Positions 15,409 through 20,064 of a stretch of 26,128 nucleotides of DNA are shown here, piece after piece. The position numbers were made by a program, and so were the translations under genes. Source of the DNA: a virus; IMG/VR virus record IMGVR_UViG_3300017967_000177, positions 1-26,128 of that record. One strand, 5' to 3'. How positions within the stretch are numbered: the first letter of the stretch is position 1; the number at the start of each line of letters is the position of its first letter. Under the pieces are notes generated by a model. That model worked only from the letters and a program-made list of their open reading frames with translations. It had not been told where the DNA came from and did not search any database.

Positions 15409-16596
15409 ATGGCAGGTCAAGGGCTCACTTGGGCACAGTTCAATAGAAGTGGTAGATACGAAAACAACCTGAGGGAGATCCACAAGAAGTCTGTTGCTGG
15501 ATCCCCTCTGCTTTTAGTTGAGCCTGTAAGTGGACTGGAAGGTAGTGGTGTTCACCTTACCTTTGATGAAATGATATTTACTGTGGGAAAGGTTGAATTT
15601 CAATTCAATCCTTCCGACTATACTGAAGATGAGTTTGTACAGAAGGTCACTGCTCGTGTACCTGACAGTATGAAAAAAGTTTCCATTACCTTTACTCATG
15701 GGCAGAAGAAAGTTGGCAGTGGAAAGGTATTAAAAGGACCAGAATTTGGTGGTAAACCCCCTGCTGGGGCAACGTTGACCGCAAGGTGGGGATACCTTGC
15801 CACGTTGACCGAGGTTTTGGATCCGAGTTACAAACTTGATACTCCTAGTTCACAGGAGATGGGTGAGTTGATGTTCATCAATGATATGAACACTGCGATT
15901 GCGGAATCCATTGACGCAGAACTGGCTAACCCCAACTCCAGAATGGATAAGAACTGCCCTGGCATCACAGTCAAGGTAGGTAGTCATGAGTTTGGTCATG
16001 TTGTTGGTGTAAATAAGGTTGCTGGTACACCCAAAGCTGACCTAGCACTGGTAGCATGTGTCAATAAAAAACTTAAGAACGTTGGATTCCTATCTCACAA
16101 GATGGGTAGTAAGGCAAAGGACTTCGGACAGTGGTCTGGTCTTACTGCTAAGGCAGGAAAAGTTATCTCTGACCATCCTGAGGTAGTTAGATTCATTGCT
16201 GATGTCAAGGCATGGACTGATGCCAATCCTGAGTGGGCAAAACCATCTGGTGTTGCTGTTCGTAGAGAGATTCAGGACAGAGATCTGATGATGTATGCTG
16301 TCTATGGACCTGACTTTGGTAAGAAGTTTGGGACTGAGAACGTCCACGCTGTACTACAGGGTAATCCCAAATTAAATAAGCGTGGAGATGTATATGTCAT
16401 GACGGCTTCTCACGTCAATGATAATGGCGATGACTTGACTGGTGATTTTATCCCTGCTTTGGTGGCAATGAAGAAGGGTGCTTGGGAGAAGATTCAAGAT
16501 CCCAATGCGAAAGGAGTAAGATCCGACTTTGGTATTCGTGGTATGAGAATATCCATCTACACCTACGGTGGTAGAAAGATTACAGATGAAATCTGA
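15409..16596 (+). CDS. uncharacterised protein, possible PD-(D/E)xK-type nuclease, 395 residues
   Basis: First gene of a tight three-gene run. It is not firmly recognised. A stretch in the middle, GTPKADLALVACVNKK (206-221) then GFLSHKMGSKAKDFGQWSG (226-244), resembles the core of PD-(D/E)xK nucleases: a conserved Asp (211) after Lys-Ala, a strand, and an S-x-K (Ser229, Lys231) followed by a glycine/phenylalanine-rich loop. Some restriction enzymes use S-x-K in place of E-x-K, with the acidic residue moved elsewhere. The N-terminal 140 residues look like a beta-rich separate domain, and the C-terminal part has a YGGRK tail. It is adjacent to and probably co-translated with a ligase-like nucleotidyltransferase (TGATG overlap). 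The nuclease call is a weak inference. Confidence 0.45.
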   Translation: MAGQGLTWAQFNRSGRYENNLREIHKKSVAGSPLLLVEPVSGLEGSGVHLTFDEMIFTVGKVEFQFNPSDYTEDEFVQKVTARVPDSMKKVSITFTHGQKKVGSGKVLKGPEFGGKPPAGATLTARWGYLATLTEVLDPSYKLDTPSSQEMGELMFINDMNTAIAESIDAELANPNSRMDKNCPGITVKVGSHEFGHVVGVNKVAGTPKADLALVACVNKKLKNVGFLSHKMGSKAKDFGQWSGLTAKAGKVISDHPEVVRFIADVKAWTDANPEWAKPSGVAVRREIQDRDLMMYAVYGPDFGKKFGTENVHAVLQGNPKLNKRGDVYVMTASHVNDNGDDLTGDFIPALVAMKKGAWEKIQDPNAKGVRSDFGIRGMRISIYTYGGRKITDEI

Positions 16597-17789
16597 TGGC
16601 AAACGTAACGCAACTAAAACACCTAGAGCATATTGAAGATGAGATGCTGAACCATGGCGTCGAAGGATGTCATGCGGCAGTGTCTGCTATGAGAGAACTT
16701 CTCCGTATGCTTGGTAAGAAGCCATCTACAGGGTTTCTACAGACTAAATGGGACGGTGCTCCCTCTGTTGTTTGCGGCACAGATCCTGAGTCAGGGAATT
16801 TTTTCGTAGGCACTAAGTCTGTCTTCAATAAGACTGAGCCTAAAATGTGTTTTACTGAGGAATATATCGATGCTATGTACTCTGGTGACCTGGCAGAGAA
16901 GCTGAAGTTCTCTCTTAAGTATTTCTCTCAGTTAGGTATTGATGGTGTGGTCCAGGGAGACCTCCTGTTTACCTCAGACAAGAAATATGAAAAGGTAGAT
17001 GGAGAAGACCTCATCACTTTCAGACCTAATACTATTACCTATGGTATACCTAGGGATCATCCCATCGGTAAGGTCGTTGATAGAGCCAAGATAGGGGTAG
17101 TTTTCCACACCCACTACGTCGGTGATGATCTACCTAGCATGGCTGCTATGGCAGGCGCTAGGGTTAAGGGATCAGTTGATGTCGCGGTCATCGAAAATGA
17201 TACTCCCTACCATGACATTTCCGTAGACAGAAACATTCTTACGAAGTTCAAAAATAATGTTGATGTTATTGAAAGAATGTGCCAGATTTGTGGTCCTTTT
17301 CTTGACAATCTGGTTAGTAATATCGGTGCCACTGGTGACGCTAAGTTCCACGTCGCTACCTTCCTCAAACAGTTCTTTAACAATGAGATTAAGAACGCTA
17401 GAAACGTGGGTGATCCTACCAGAACTCTCAAGGCTCTTGGTGAGTTCTACCATAGCAAGATGCTGAAGGAGATTGATAAGGTCAAGTCTGATAAAGGTAA
17501 GACCAAGAAGAGGGAACTTCTCTATACAGGTCTGGAATACCTAGAGAAGAATGCTAAAGAGTTTCGTGCCATGCTAGCCCTATATAAAAAACTACAGGAG
17601 AACAAGCAACTGGTCATTGATCAGCTTGATCATCTGGAAACATTTAGAACTCTGGTCCAGACGGACAAAGGATATAAAGCCACGAACCCTGAAGGGTATG
17701 TGTTACATCACAATGGCGACATGATTAAGTTGGTGAACAGAATTGAGTTCTCTTACATCAACTTTACCCTGTCAAAAGAATGGAAGTAG
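16596..17789 (+). CDS. ligase-like covalent nucleotidyltransferase (KxDG superfamily), 397 residues
   Basis: The protein carries, in order, motifs of the DNA/RNA ligase and capping-enzyme superfamily. Motif I is TKWDGAPS (50-57), with Lys51 as the predicted AMP or GMP acceptor. A motif III-like strand is GVVQGDLLF (117-125), with Asp122 where ligases usually have Glu. GVVFHTHY (167-174) matches the motif IIIa position, motif IV is PEGYVLHH (365-372) and motif V is MIKLVNR (376-382). A helical insert of about 165 residues (190-355) separates motifs IIIa and IV, far longer than usual, and no OB-fold domain follows motif V. It could be an RNA or DNA ligase, or an enzyme that nucleotidylates another molecule. 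Family membership is well supported; substrate is not. Confidence 0.68.
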   Translation: MANVTQLKHLEHIEDEMLNHGVEGCHAAVSAMRELLRMLGKKPSTGFLQTKWDGAPSVVCGTDPESGNFFVGTKSVFNKTEPKMCFTEEYIDAMYSGDLAEKLKFSLKYFSQLGIDGVVQGDLLFTSDKKYEKVDGEDLITFRPNTITYGIPRDHPIGKVVDRAKIGVVFHTHYVGDDLPSMAAMAGARVKGSVDVAVIENDTPYHDISVDRNILTKFKNNVDVIERMCQICGPFLDNLVSNIGATGDAKFHVATFLKQFFNNEIKNARNVGDPTRTLKALGEFYHSKMLKEIDKVKSDKGKTKKRELLYTGLEYLEKNAKEFRAMLALYKKLQENKQLVIDQLDHLETFRTLVQTDKGYKATNPEGYVLHHNGDMIKLVNRIEFSYINFTLSKEWK

Positions 17790-18331
17790 TAGATTACAAG
17801 TGCGTGTACTTTACGTTTGGTAGGTTCCAACCTCCAACCATAGGACACGAGGAAAATTTCAAAGCAGTCAAAGGTAAGGCAGGTACCTGTGACTGGTATA
17901 TCTACTTGTCTCAGACTGTTGATAAGAAAGGTAGCAACCCCTTGACACCAGATAGGAAACTCTTCTATGCTAAGAAGATGTTCCCCCAGTTGAGGAACAA
18001 TATCAGGAGTGGTCCTAAGGATCCAGTGGCTATCTTAAAAGAGTTACAAGCAGAAGGTTATGATGATGCCGTCCTAGTTGTCGGATCTGACAGAGTACCC
18101 GCAATGCAATGGATTAAAAAGTACAATGGCAAGGACTTTTATTTTAGAAAACTCGAAGTTATCTCTTCAGGCGAACGCGATGCTGACGGTGACACTTTTG
18201 CTATTTCTGGCACAAAAATGCGACGCGCAGCGGTAGCAGGAGACTTCAAAACATTCCGTCAAGGCATACCTAAAGCCTTATCTGATAAGGATGCTAGGGA
18301 ACTTATGGATGAGATCCGAAAAAATATGTGA
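17780..18331 (+). CDS. T-x-G-H nucleotidyltransferase (cytidylyltransferase/NMN adenylyltransferase-like)
   Basis: A 183-residue Rossmann-type nucleotidyltransferase. The nucleotide-binding signature is GRFQPPTIGHEE (14-25), a T-x-G-H version of the usual H-x-G-H; the T form is common in phage members. The second signature, AISGTKMRRAA, matches the family's ISGTxxR motif that contacts the phosphates. VLVVGSDRVPAMQW is the middle strand. Relatives transfer CMP or AMP to phosphorylated small molecules such as NMN, pantetheine phosphate or sugar and glycerol phosphates. Here it overlaps the ligase-like gene by 10 bases, suggesting a joint function. The stop is followed immediately by a late promoter, so this gene closes the cassette. 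Confidence 0.78.
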   Translation: MEVVDYKCVYFTFGRFQPPTIGHEENFKAVKGKAGTCDWYIYLSQTVDKKGSNPLTPDRKLFYAKKMFPQLRNNIRSGPKDPVAILKELQAEGYDDAVLVVGSDRVPAMQWIKKYNGKDFYFRKLEVISSGERDADGDTFAISGTKMRRAAVAGDFKTFRQGIPKALSDKDARELMDEIRKNM

Positions 18332-18361: not shown

Positions 18362-19450
18362 ATGAAATCTTTCAGCGACTTTAAGAAGACCAGAGAAGTT
18401 GCGGAGCAAAGTGTTCTCCGTGATAAATACTATCGTGAAGAAATTTATAAAGTAGGTGAGTGGGTACTCACCGAGTCAGGCAACGTCGGTAAGATCGTTC
18501 GCCGTGGTCCTAACTATGTTATCTGTGTCACCGCTGAAGATACTTCTTTCCGCACCTGGGTGAGGGACATCAAAGAAGTATTTGAAATTGGAACAGACGC
18601 ATACCGCGAATATGTAATGTCACTTACTCCTGGTCAGAAAGTTCAAAAGCCTGCTGGGAGTGTCAAAGTCAAACAAGTAATCCCCACAGACCCCAAAAAA
18701 GATAAGATGGACAATCACGAGAGTCTGGTACACGCAGTCGCTGCTCACCTCAGTTCCAAATCGGAATCTTGGAGATATGATAAGTCTCCTATCGCTGGTA
18801 ACAAGAACGTCAAAGGTCTTGGTGCCGCAGGTGTAGGTGGTGGTGACGCCCCTGGCATGAAACTTGCTGAACCCAAAGGTACAGAAGGTAAGCCAGCAGT
18901 CAAGAAACCTCAGCACGCTTGCGCTACTAAGGTTGAGCACTCGGAGTGGGGCGAGGGTAACTGTATTAAAGAGATGCACACTCTCGATGAAGCGGGTAAC
19001 ATCTCTCACTATGATGTAATGTTCGAGCATGGTCTTGAGCAGAACGTACCTGTTCAGGTCCTGAACGTTCTGGTCAGCGAGATGCATGAGCACGCTATCA
19101 ACATCGAAAAGAACCAGGAGGTTCTGGACGAGAAGAAAAAGAAACTTGATCCTGTCGGTAAAGAAGACGGCGACGTTGACAACGACGGTGACAAAGATTC
19201 TTCTGATTCCTATCTTATGAATCGTCGTCGTGCTGTTGCTAAGGCAATGGGCAAGAAGACTAAGAAGGAAGAAGTAGAACTTCAAGACGAAGGTATGAAG
19301 CAGGCACGCGCTAATGTTGGTGCCTCTACTTGCTGGGACGGTTATGAAGCCAAGGGTACTAAAACGAAAGGCGGTAAGGAAGTTCCTAACTGCGTGAAGA
19401 AAGAGAGCACCTTCTCCGACTGGAGAAAGGAGATCTCTGAAAAAAAGTAG
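18362..19450 (+). CDS. probable virion-associated protein with EF-hand-like calcium loop, 362 residues
   Basis: A late-region protein of a type seen in T4-like cyanophages. The opening MKSFSDFKKTREVAEQS is typical of their structural-region proteins. Residues 30-75 (VGEWVLTESGNVGKIVRRG onward) and about 188-240 look like two small SH3/KOW-type barrels. DVDNDGDKDSSD (271-282) fits the D-x-D-x-D-G-x-x-D-x-x-D calcium loop exactly. A CWDGYEAKGTKTKGG motif (324-338) with a later Cys344 follows. The gene ends GAA AAA AAG TAG, where A AAA AAG is a canonical -1 slippery heptamer, and the -1 frame is open into the next ORF, so a longer fusion product may be made. The late promoter is 22 bases upstream. 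Precise role unknown. Confidence 0.7.
   Translation: MKSFSDFKKTREVAEQSVLRDKYYREEIYKVGEWVLTESGNVGKIVRRGPNYVICVTAEDTSFRTWVRDIKEVFEIGTDAYREYVMSLTPGQKVQKPAGSVKVKQVIPTDPKKDKMDNHESLVHAVAAHLSSKSESWRYDKSPIAGNKNVKGLGAAGVGGGDAPGMKLAEPKGTEGKPAVKKPQHACATKVEHSEWGEGNCIKEMHTLDEAGNISHYDVMFEHGLEQNVPVQVLNVLVSEMHEHAINIEKNQEVLDEKKKKLDPVGKEDGDVDNDGDKDSSDSYLMNRRRAVAKAMGKKTKKEEVELQDEGMKQARANVGASTCWDGYEAKGTKTKGGKEVPNCVKKESTFSDWRKEISEKK
19441..19447 (+). other. candidate programmed -1 ribosomal frameshift site (A AAA AAG)
   Basis: The heptamer is in the correct zero-frame phase (A, AAA, AAG) and is followed at once by the TAG stop of the 362-residue ORF. After a -1 slip, reading continues GTA GCC TCG GCG with no stop through the ATG of the next ORF at 19471 to its TGA at 20064. 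Downstream, CTCGG (19452-19456) can pair with CCGAG (19475-19479). Alternatively GCCCGAGATC (19473-19482) folds with GATCCATCGGGC (19486-19497) as a stronger hairpin with a CA bulge. A one-base homopolymer sequencing error, which would also fuse the ORFs, is the main alternative. Confidence 0.5.
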
Positions 19451-19470
19451 CCTCGGCGGTAGTTGATATC

Positions 19471-20064
19471 ATGCCCGAGATCGATGATCCATCGGGCAAC
19501 CCCGAGCAAACTTCCGCCAAGAAGATGCCCAAAGTCCCTCAACAGACTGAGGCAAAATGTAATAAGTCTGGTGAAGGAAAAGAGTGTCCTCTTCACGGTA
19601 AGCACGCTTGCCCTGAACTAAAAGAGGAGACTATTGATGAGAAGAGAGGATTGTACGCCAATATCCATGCTAAAAGAAAGCGTGGAGAGTCTCCTGCGAA
19701 ACCAGGCGATGATGATTATCCAGCAAAGGATGCGTTTAGAAAATCCGCCAGAACAGCCAAGAAAGAATCCTACAGATTAGCCGAGGTTGCTCCTTCTGGT
19801 TCTAAGTATGAGCGCATGGTGAAGCATATTAAAAAGTCCTACGCTAAGGACGGTAAACTCACCAAGGATGAGAAGTCTATTGCTTATGCTACCGCTTGGA
19901 AGCATAAGAATAAGATGAAGAAAGAACACTGCGACATGGAGTTTGATGTCGTAGCACATCAGTGTGGTCACTGTAATGCTACTGGGTATCATCCAACTGG
20001 TGAGAAGTGTGATCAGTGTGATGGTAAAGGCACACTTCAGACGGCTAACGATGGAGTTGATTGA
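19471..20064 (+). CDS. zinc-knuckle protein of the late region, 197 residues (possibly the frameshift extension of the upstream gene)
   Basis: The protein has two Cys/His clusters: Cys30, Cys39, His42, His45 and Cys47 near the N-terminus, and a CxxC-x11-CxxC pair (Cys165, Cys168, Cys180, Cys183) in CGHCNATGYHPTGEKCDQC. The second is close to the DnaJ-type zinc motif. KRGLYANIHAKRKRGES (58-74) and SKYERMVKHIKKSYAKDGKL (111-130) are segments I recognise from many marine phage proteins of unknown function. No ribosome binding site precedes the ATG at 19471, and that ATG lies at the base of a hairpin, so independent initiation is doubtful. A -1 frameshift at 19441 would deliver this sequence as a C-terminal extension. 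Function unknown; a capsid or DNA-associated role is speculative. Confidence 0.65.
   Translation: MPEIDDPSGNPEQTSAKKMPKVPQQTEAKCNKSGEGKECPLHGKHACPELKEETIDEKRGLYANIHAKRKRGESPAKPGDDDYPAKDAFRKSARTAKKESYRLAEVAPSGSKYERMVKHIKKSYAKDGKLTKDEKSIAYATAWKHKNKMKKEHCDMEFDVVAHQCGHCNATGYHPTGEKCDQCDGKGTLQTANDGVD

Follow-up and report, generated by a model that had tools for sequence, protein, structure and literature searches.

Predicted programmed -1 ribosomal frameshifting joins two open reading frames in a gene of T4-like marine cyanophages

Two adjacent open reading frames (ORF1 and ORF2) in a virus record of 26,128 bases are, with high probability, a single gene whose two halves are joined by programmed -1 ribosomal frameshifting; direct evidence for the fusion protein is lacking. 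The whole stretch of DNA that was analysed, referred to here as the window, contains genes that match those of T4-like marine cyanophages and, on the basis of these matches, is a piece of such a genome. A -1 shift joining both ORFs at the heptamer A AAA AAG had been predicted previously, and this proposal was supported by the heptamer itself, by the coding character of the peptide that links the two frames, by hairpins positioned downstream of the slip site and by the internal location of the ATG at 19471 with respect to homologous proteins. The features of the locus are listed in Table 1.

Table 1. Features of the predicted frameshift locus (positions are those of the window)
Feature	Position	Strand	Remarks
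ORF1, zero-frame product, 362 residues/codons	18362..19450	+	Orthologue of PHM1_163/PHM2_164 (phrog_22379)
Shine-Dalgarno-like AAAGGAGA, upstream of slip site	19425..19432	+	GGAG ending 8 nt upstream of the heptamer
Slippery heptamer A AAA AAG, in phase with ORF1	19441..19447	+	84/84 orthologues
Extension in the -1 frame, 205 residues, VASAVVDIMPEIDDP... to TGA	19447..20064	+	C-terminal part of the inferred 567-residue fusion
Zero-frame stop TAG	19448..19450	+	Sequence and orthologues
Predicted stimulatory stem-loop	19452..19521	+	Main stem GGCGG 19455-19459 / CCGCC 19514-19518; inner hairpin 19472-19498
ATG called as ORF2 start	19471..19473	+	Matches internal Met of VE[VI]MP motif in true-start homologues

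The original prediction described ORF1 as ending in GAA AAA AAG TAG, and this ending was found at 19439-19450 with a run of seven A's, the heptamer being in ORF1 phase and the stop being the next codon, as claimed. The -1 frame is indeed open up to 20064: past the slip site it runs for 205 codons, beginning VASAVVDIMPEIDDPSG... / VASAVVDIMPEIDDPSGN... and closing with TGA at 20062-20064, so that the fusion would have the 567 residues proposed. The nearest named relatives are the Prochlorococcus phages P-HM2, P-HM1 and MED4-213, in which the gene also ends in A AAA AAG followed by TAG (CAA TAG in P-HM2); the peptide across the P-HM1 junction is KVASSSVEIMPELDDPDGMK. Most of the more distant genomes that carry the signal (see below) share a gene order in which a cytidylyltransferase gene, often a small gene, the ORF1 gene and a short downstream gene succeed one another, with a structural-protein gene slightly further on. 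Two other ORFs of the window deserve mention. The cytidylyltransferase ORF carries an in-phase A AAA AAT one codon before its stop (18319-18331), which looks incidental, the -1 frame closing there within a few codons as judged by eye, and a DUF6267 protein (16596-17789) contains TKWDGAPS, similar to the KxDG motif of nucleotidyltransferases and ligases, a resemblance only.

Scans of IMG/VR yielded about 100 related loci, from which, together with P-HM1, P-HM2 and MED4-213, a set of 84 orthologues with a readable end, corresponding to 69 distinct junctions, was assembled. Two loci were left out of the 84, one in which the automatic start was wrong (L004) and one in which the frame breaks upstream while the junction is intact (L093); in the latter, a P-HM1-like contig (L093:4001-5471), the ORF1 frame is broken after 264 codons, probably by an assembly indel. 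Conservation of the heptamer in relatives had been suggested as a check, and the in-phase A AAA AAG was kept in all 84 orthologues, with the zero-frame stop directly after it in 80 and one codon later in the remaining 4. These orthologues are mutually related and therefore do not represent 84 independent events. Within the orthologue ORFs, Lys-Lys is written AAAAAG in only 68 of 704 cases and Glu-Lys-Lys is spelled GAAAAAAAG in 2 of 41 cases elsewhere. Moreover, the residue preceding Lys-Lys varies (Glu, Ala, Ser, Gly), yet the A at heptamer position 1 is constant. A survey of 22 cyanophage regions, taking stop-to-stop ORFs no shorter than 100 codons, found the heptamer at the end of 10 out of 363, and all 10 were copies of the present gene. 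The occurrence of the heptamer at the end of this gene is more than chance.

A hairpin at about 19473-19497 had also been anticipated; it exists, nested within a longer predicted stem (19452-19521). By predicted folding, the distance from the heptamer to the start of the stem is 4-7 nt for the window and 4-9 nt across the orthologues; published structural stimulators begin 5-8 nt downstream (PMC4066793). The stem-loop of the window is stronger than those of synonymous recodings (z -4.3), and 70-base segments had a mean z of -2.87, with 93% of them below -1.5. Among 31 representatives the minimum of folding energy lies 0-6 nt past the heptamer (-19.8 kcal/mol vs about -9.5 elsewhere), and in 23 of the 31 the hairpin exceeds synonymous recodings of the same peptide (p < 0.05). 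Members of the S-CAM3-like family have different hairpin sequences at the same position, with a sharp energy minimum. The position of the hairpin is thus what was observed to be conserved. Covariation was less uniform: pairing-preserving double changes were found at four pairs in one set, with supportive shuffle controls; a second set had a single pair with a double change (A-U to G-C in 7 of 20) and neutral shuffle controls; and the controls for alignment A5 were not decisive. RNAalifold on one clade returned a weak fold without double changes. A single covariation model for all clades was tried and failed because the clades use different 3' arms. The hairpins are weak in S-PM2 and its closest relatives, which counts against the frameshifting interpretation; S-PM2, Syn1, S-RIM32, S-H9-2 and Sf-CH11 combine weaker hairpins with AAGGAGG upstream.

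Upstream of the heptamer, at 7-12 nt, GGAG, GAGG or AGGA is present in 69 of 69 distinct junctions; the optional Shine-Dalgarno-like stimulator of such signals has been described at 9-14 nt upstream (PMC5009743). Synonymous recodings equal the strength of the element seen here 43% of the time, so it is weak evidence, being largely explained by the encoded residues. Its use as independent proof was accordingly downgraded after this control.

The segment between the slip site and the first in-frame ATG behaves as protein-coding sequence in the -1 frame. It comprises 6, 7 or 8 codons in 1, 60 and 23 loci, respectively, that is, always whole codons, and its changes in length therefore preserve the frame. 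The encoded peptide follows the pattern V.GPVE[IV]MP with conservative changes, and the synonymous share of its single-base codon differences is 59% in the -1 frame, against 33% and 2% in the remaining frames. None of 68 junctions has a stop within the initial 25 codons of the -1 frame, whereas stops interrupt the other frames in 57 and 67. In 72 of the 84 orthologues the -1 frame codon just upstream of AAA AAA is TGA, meaning that no upstream -1 reading can feed the link there.

These observations bear on the most serious alternative, namely that the locus consists of two ordinary genes, ORF2 being translated from the ATG at 19471 by reinitiation or coupling after the ORF1 stop, without any frameshift. 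An equivalent ATG is present in 69 of 69 distinct junctions, preceded at the same place by GAG in 62 of them, and a coupled ATGA start does serve the downstream domain in related phages (see below). However, two separate genes would account neither for the conservation of the 6-8 codons before the ATG as -1 frame protein, closed upstream by TGA, nor for the heptamer and the hairpin. Besides, the ATG is read as internal because it aligns with the Met of VEVMP inside homologues that have a true start, and, judging from this alignment, it is probably not the real start. Within the link, the codons that resemble starts are chiefly ATC or ATA; some loci have GTG. Several protein families (phrog_32143, phrog_30268 and phrog_11051) have matches to the tails that begin no more than a few residues away from the internal Met, consistent with starts having been miscalled at that residue. 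We therefore consider the two-gene explanation improbable, and some additional initiation (reinitiation) at the internal ATG, giving a second product, is not excluded. As a separate observation, the Glu codon two before this ATG (19465-19467) is GAG in 62 of the 63 distinct junctions that have Glu, the window having GAT; GAG and GAA are about equally used elsewhere, and this bias could reflect either hairpin pairing or weak initiation.

Transcription offers another route to the same fusion protein, in which RNA polymerase slips on the A run and adds one A to some transcripts. The site is A-rich; nevertheless, reported transcriptional slippage involves runs of more than seven (PMC3711429) or nine (PMC5009743), and the runs found here fall short of more than seven A or T, being of six or seven A's and of only six in relatives such as L233-L242, L252 and L257. 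Polymerase slippage would, in addition, leave unexplained the fixed phase, the terminal G and the downstream hairpin, and is regarded as very improbable. A homopolymer sequencing or assembly error splitting one ORF, which was the main rival in the original prediction and would fit the location of the break at a homopolymer, is effectively excluded by relatives carrying the same run and frame change, these being 84 assemblies that include cultured isolates, as well as S-CAM3, S-CAM1, Syn1, S-PM2, S-RIM32 and S-H9-2.

The arrangement extends beyond the closest orthologues. In S-CAM3 (Charybdisvirus) and about 30 more IMG/VR loci of the same type the upstream ORF ends in A AAA AAG plus a stop and a VE[VI]MP-type motif lies in the -1 frame; the same combination was found in S-CAM1, Syn1, S-PM2, S-RIM32, S-H9-2, Sf-FR1 and Sf-CH11. 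Four of the surveyed genomes (S-H9-1, S-WAM2, S-RSM4 and ACG-2014d) lack the heptamer, a further point against the frameshift. In the first three the downstream domain has a gene of its own, with an ATG that overlaps the stop (ATGA), and ATGA-coupled genes also occur in sister-group loci (L251, L253-L255, L258, L259, L262-L272, L274-L279 and L281-L286). Such genes begin MKTFKQ... or MKSFKQ..., with VEVMP about 30 residues in (VEVLP in S-WAM2). The ATGA pairs of S-H9-1, S-WAM2 and S-RSM4 resemble the window in gene neighbourhood, in having a related upstream protein (phrog_4359 for S-WAM2) and in the VEVMP-type domain in the -1 frame, and differ from it in that a true ATG overlapping the stop takes the place of the slippery heptamer. 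In relatives where the zero-frame stop is TGA the -1 frame begins with GTG, the corresponding window codon being GTA, so those relatives could also have a GTGA start that overlaps the stop. As far as can be read from the genomes, the frameshift arrangement is kept across several cyanomyovirus genera and others supply the domain from an ATGA-coupled gene.

According to the frameshifting interpretation, most ribosomes would presumably terminate at TAG 19448, yielding the protein of 362 residues, the share being unmeasured. A fraction may be held by the hairpin 4-7 nt downstream of the heptamer, perhaps helped to slip by the Shine-Dalgarno-like element 8 nt upstream; held ribosomes would move back from A AAA AAG to AAA AAA G and add a further 205 residues in the -1 frame, producing a longer form with an N-terminus identical to that of the short protein. 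A host in which one tRNA-Lys(UUU) alone decodes both AAA and AAG would favour such slippage. The occurrence of slippage, its frequency and any importance of the ratio between both forms are inferred.

The function of the products remains obscure. The original prediction compared the fusion with tail assembly proteins, and nothing was found in favour of such a role. The P-HM1 gene (at 142.3 kb) is separated by about 35 kb from the genes for the tail sheath and tube (gp18/gp19, 104.9-107.5 kb), and does not have the lambda-type placement of the chaperone between the major tail and tape measure genes in this phage. Homology to known tail chaperones was not found, PHROG matches being of unknown-function or cytidyltransferase type. 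A tail assembly chaperone was thus rejected because the location does not fit and homology is missing. Assigned to the two halves, the 'calcium loop' (DVDNDGDKDSSD) and the 'zinc knuckle' did not hold beyond motif readings, as neither ORF1 nor the tail of the window reached the cut-off of any Pfam model. For ORF1, secondary structure prediction gave, at low confidence, helices, long regions of disorder and two small stretches rich in beta structure, and the AlphaFold model was poor (mean pLDDT 51). The tails, as short as 32 residues in Syn1, share a core of VE[VI]MP followed by acidic residues and include DUF6321 in L009 (Pfam E 2.9e-23) and DUF3008 in S-PM2 (E 6.7e-06). Recurring short modules (YANIHAKRKRGE, SKYERMVKHIKKSYAKDGKLT, ASTCWDGYKAKGTK..VPNCVK, CPVHG and DUF6321) build ORF1 and the tail and turn up in many cyanophage proteins, where their order and frame context differ (window 18900-20064; L009:5200-5853; L118 and L220, Bellamy gene 123). 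When in-frame fusions of the junction peptide were sought, the matches were orthologous junctions plus in-frame copies, in other proteins, of the CPVHG module alone. The ORF1 protein looks like a string of small modules of unknown function, and is possibly virion-associated, a guess based on the neighbouring structural genes.

In its layout the signal resembles those of Escherichia coli dnaX and the IS1/IS3-family transposases, which have A AAA AAG, a hairpin a few nt downstream and a Shine-Dalgarno-like element upstream (PMC6787027; PMC5009743). The cyanophage gene is unrelated to dnaX. In E. coli dnaX shifting gives the shorter product, whereas here it would give the longer one, the zero-frame stop following directly on the heptamer. 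Likewise, it shares with lambda G/GT-type tail assembly chaperones the fact of being a phage gene with a C-terminal extension acquired by a -1 shift, but it is not located among tail genes and homology was not found. To judge by its title, the study of Vladimirov et al. 2022 (cited in PMC10885494) attributes a non-frameshift mechanism to T4-like tail chaperones. An earlier report of the cyanophage frameshift was not found in the openly licensed literature, which does not prove its absence; the word frameshift does not occur in the main text of the paper on the P-HM1/P-HM2 genomes (PMC3037559). No cyanophage annotation that was fetched joins the two ORFs, and the long protein has been missed because databases list its halves as separate hypothetical genes. 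Elsewhere in P-HM1, uvsW (L314:5907-7386; PHM1_126 and PHM1_127) is annotated as two overlapping ORFs, representing a split gene or another frame change.

Altogether, this is very likely a programmed -1 frameshift with a dnaX-like layout in a gene of unknown function, unreported as far as could be searched. Tentatively, and with slightly more doubt than confidence, it can be hypothesized that cyanomyoviruses switched one gene pair between ATGA coupling and -1 frameshifting, that the hairpin stimulator was replaced several times by different sequences, and that frameshifting sets the VE[VI]MP-tailed share of a virion-associated modular protein. As the signal is kept in cultured phages (P-HM1, P-HM2, S-PM2), the frameshift is directly testable. 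In this very abundant group of ocean viruses it would represent a programmed frameshift that lies outside tail assembly and has apparently not been reported before. The alternation of coupling and frameshifting at one locus, together with varied hairpins at one position, provides a natural series on the origins of frameshift signals.
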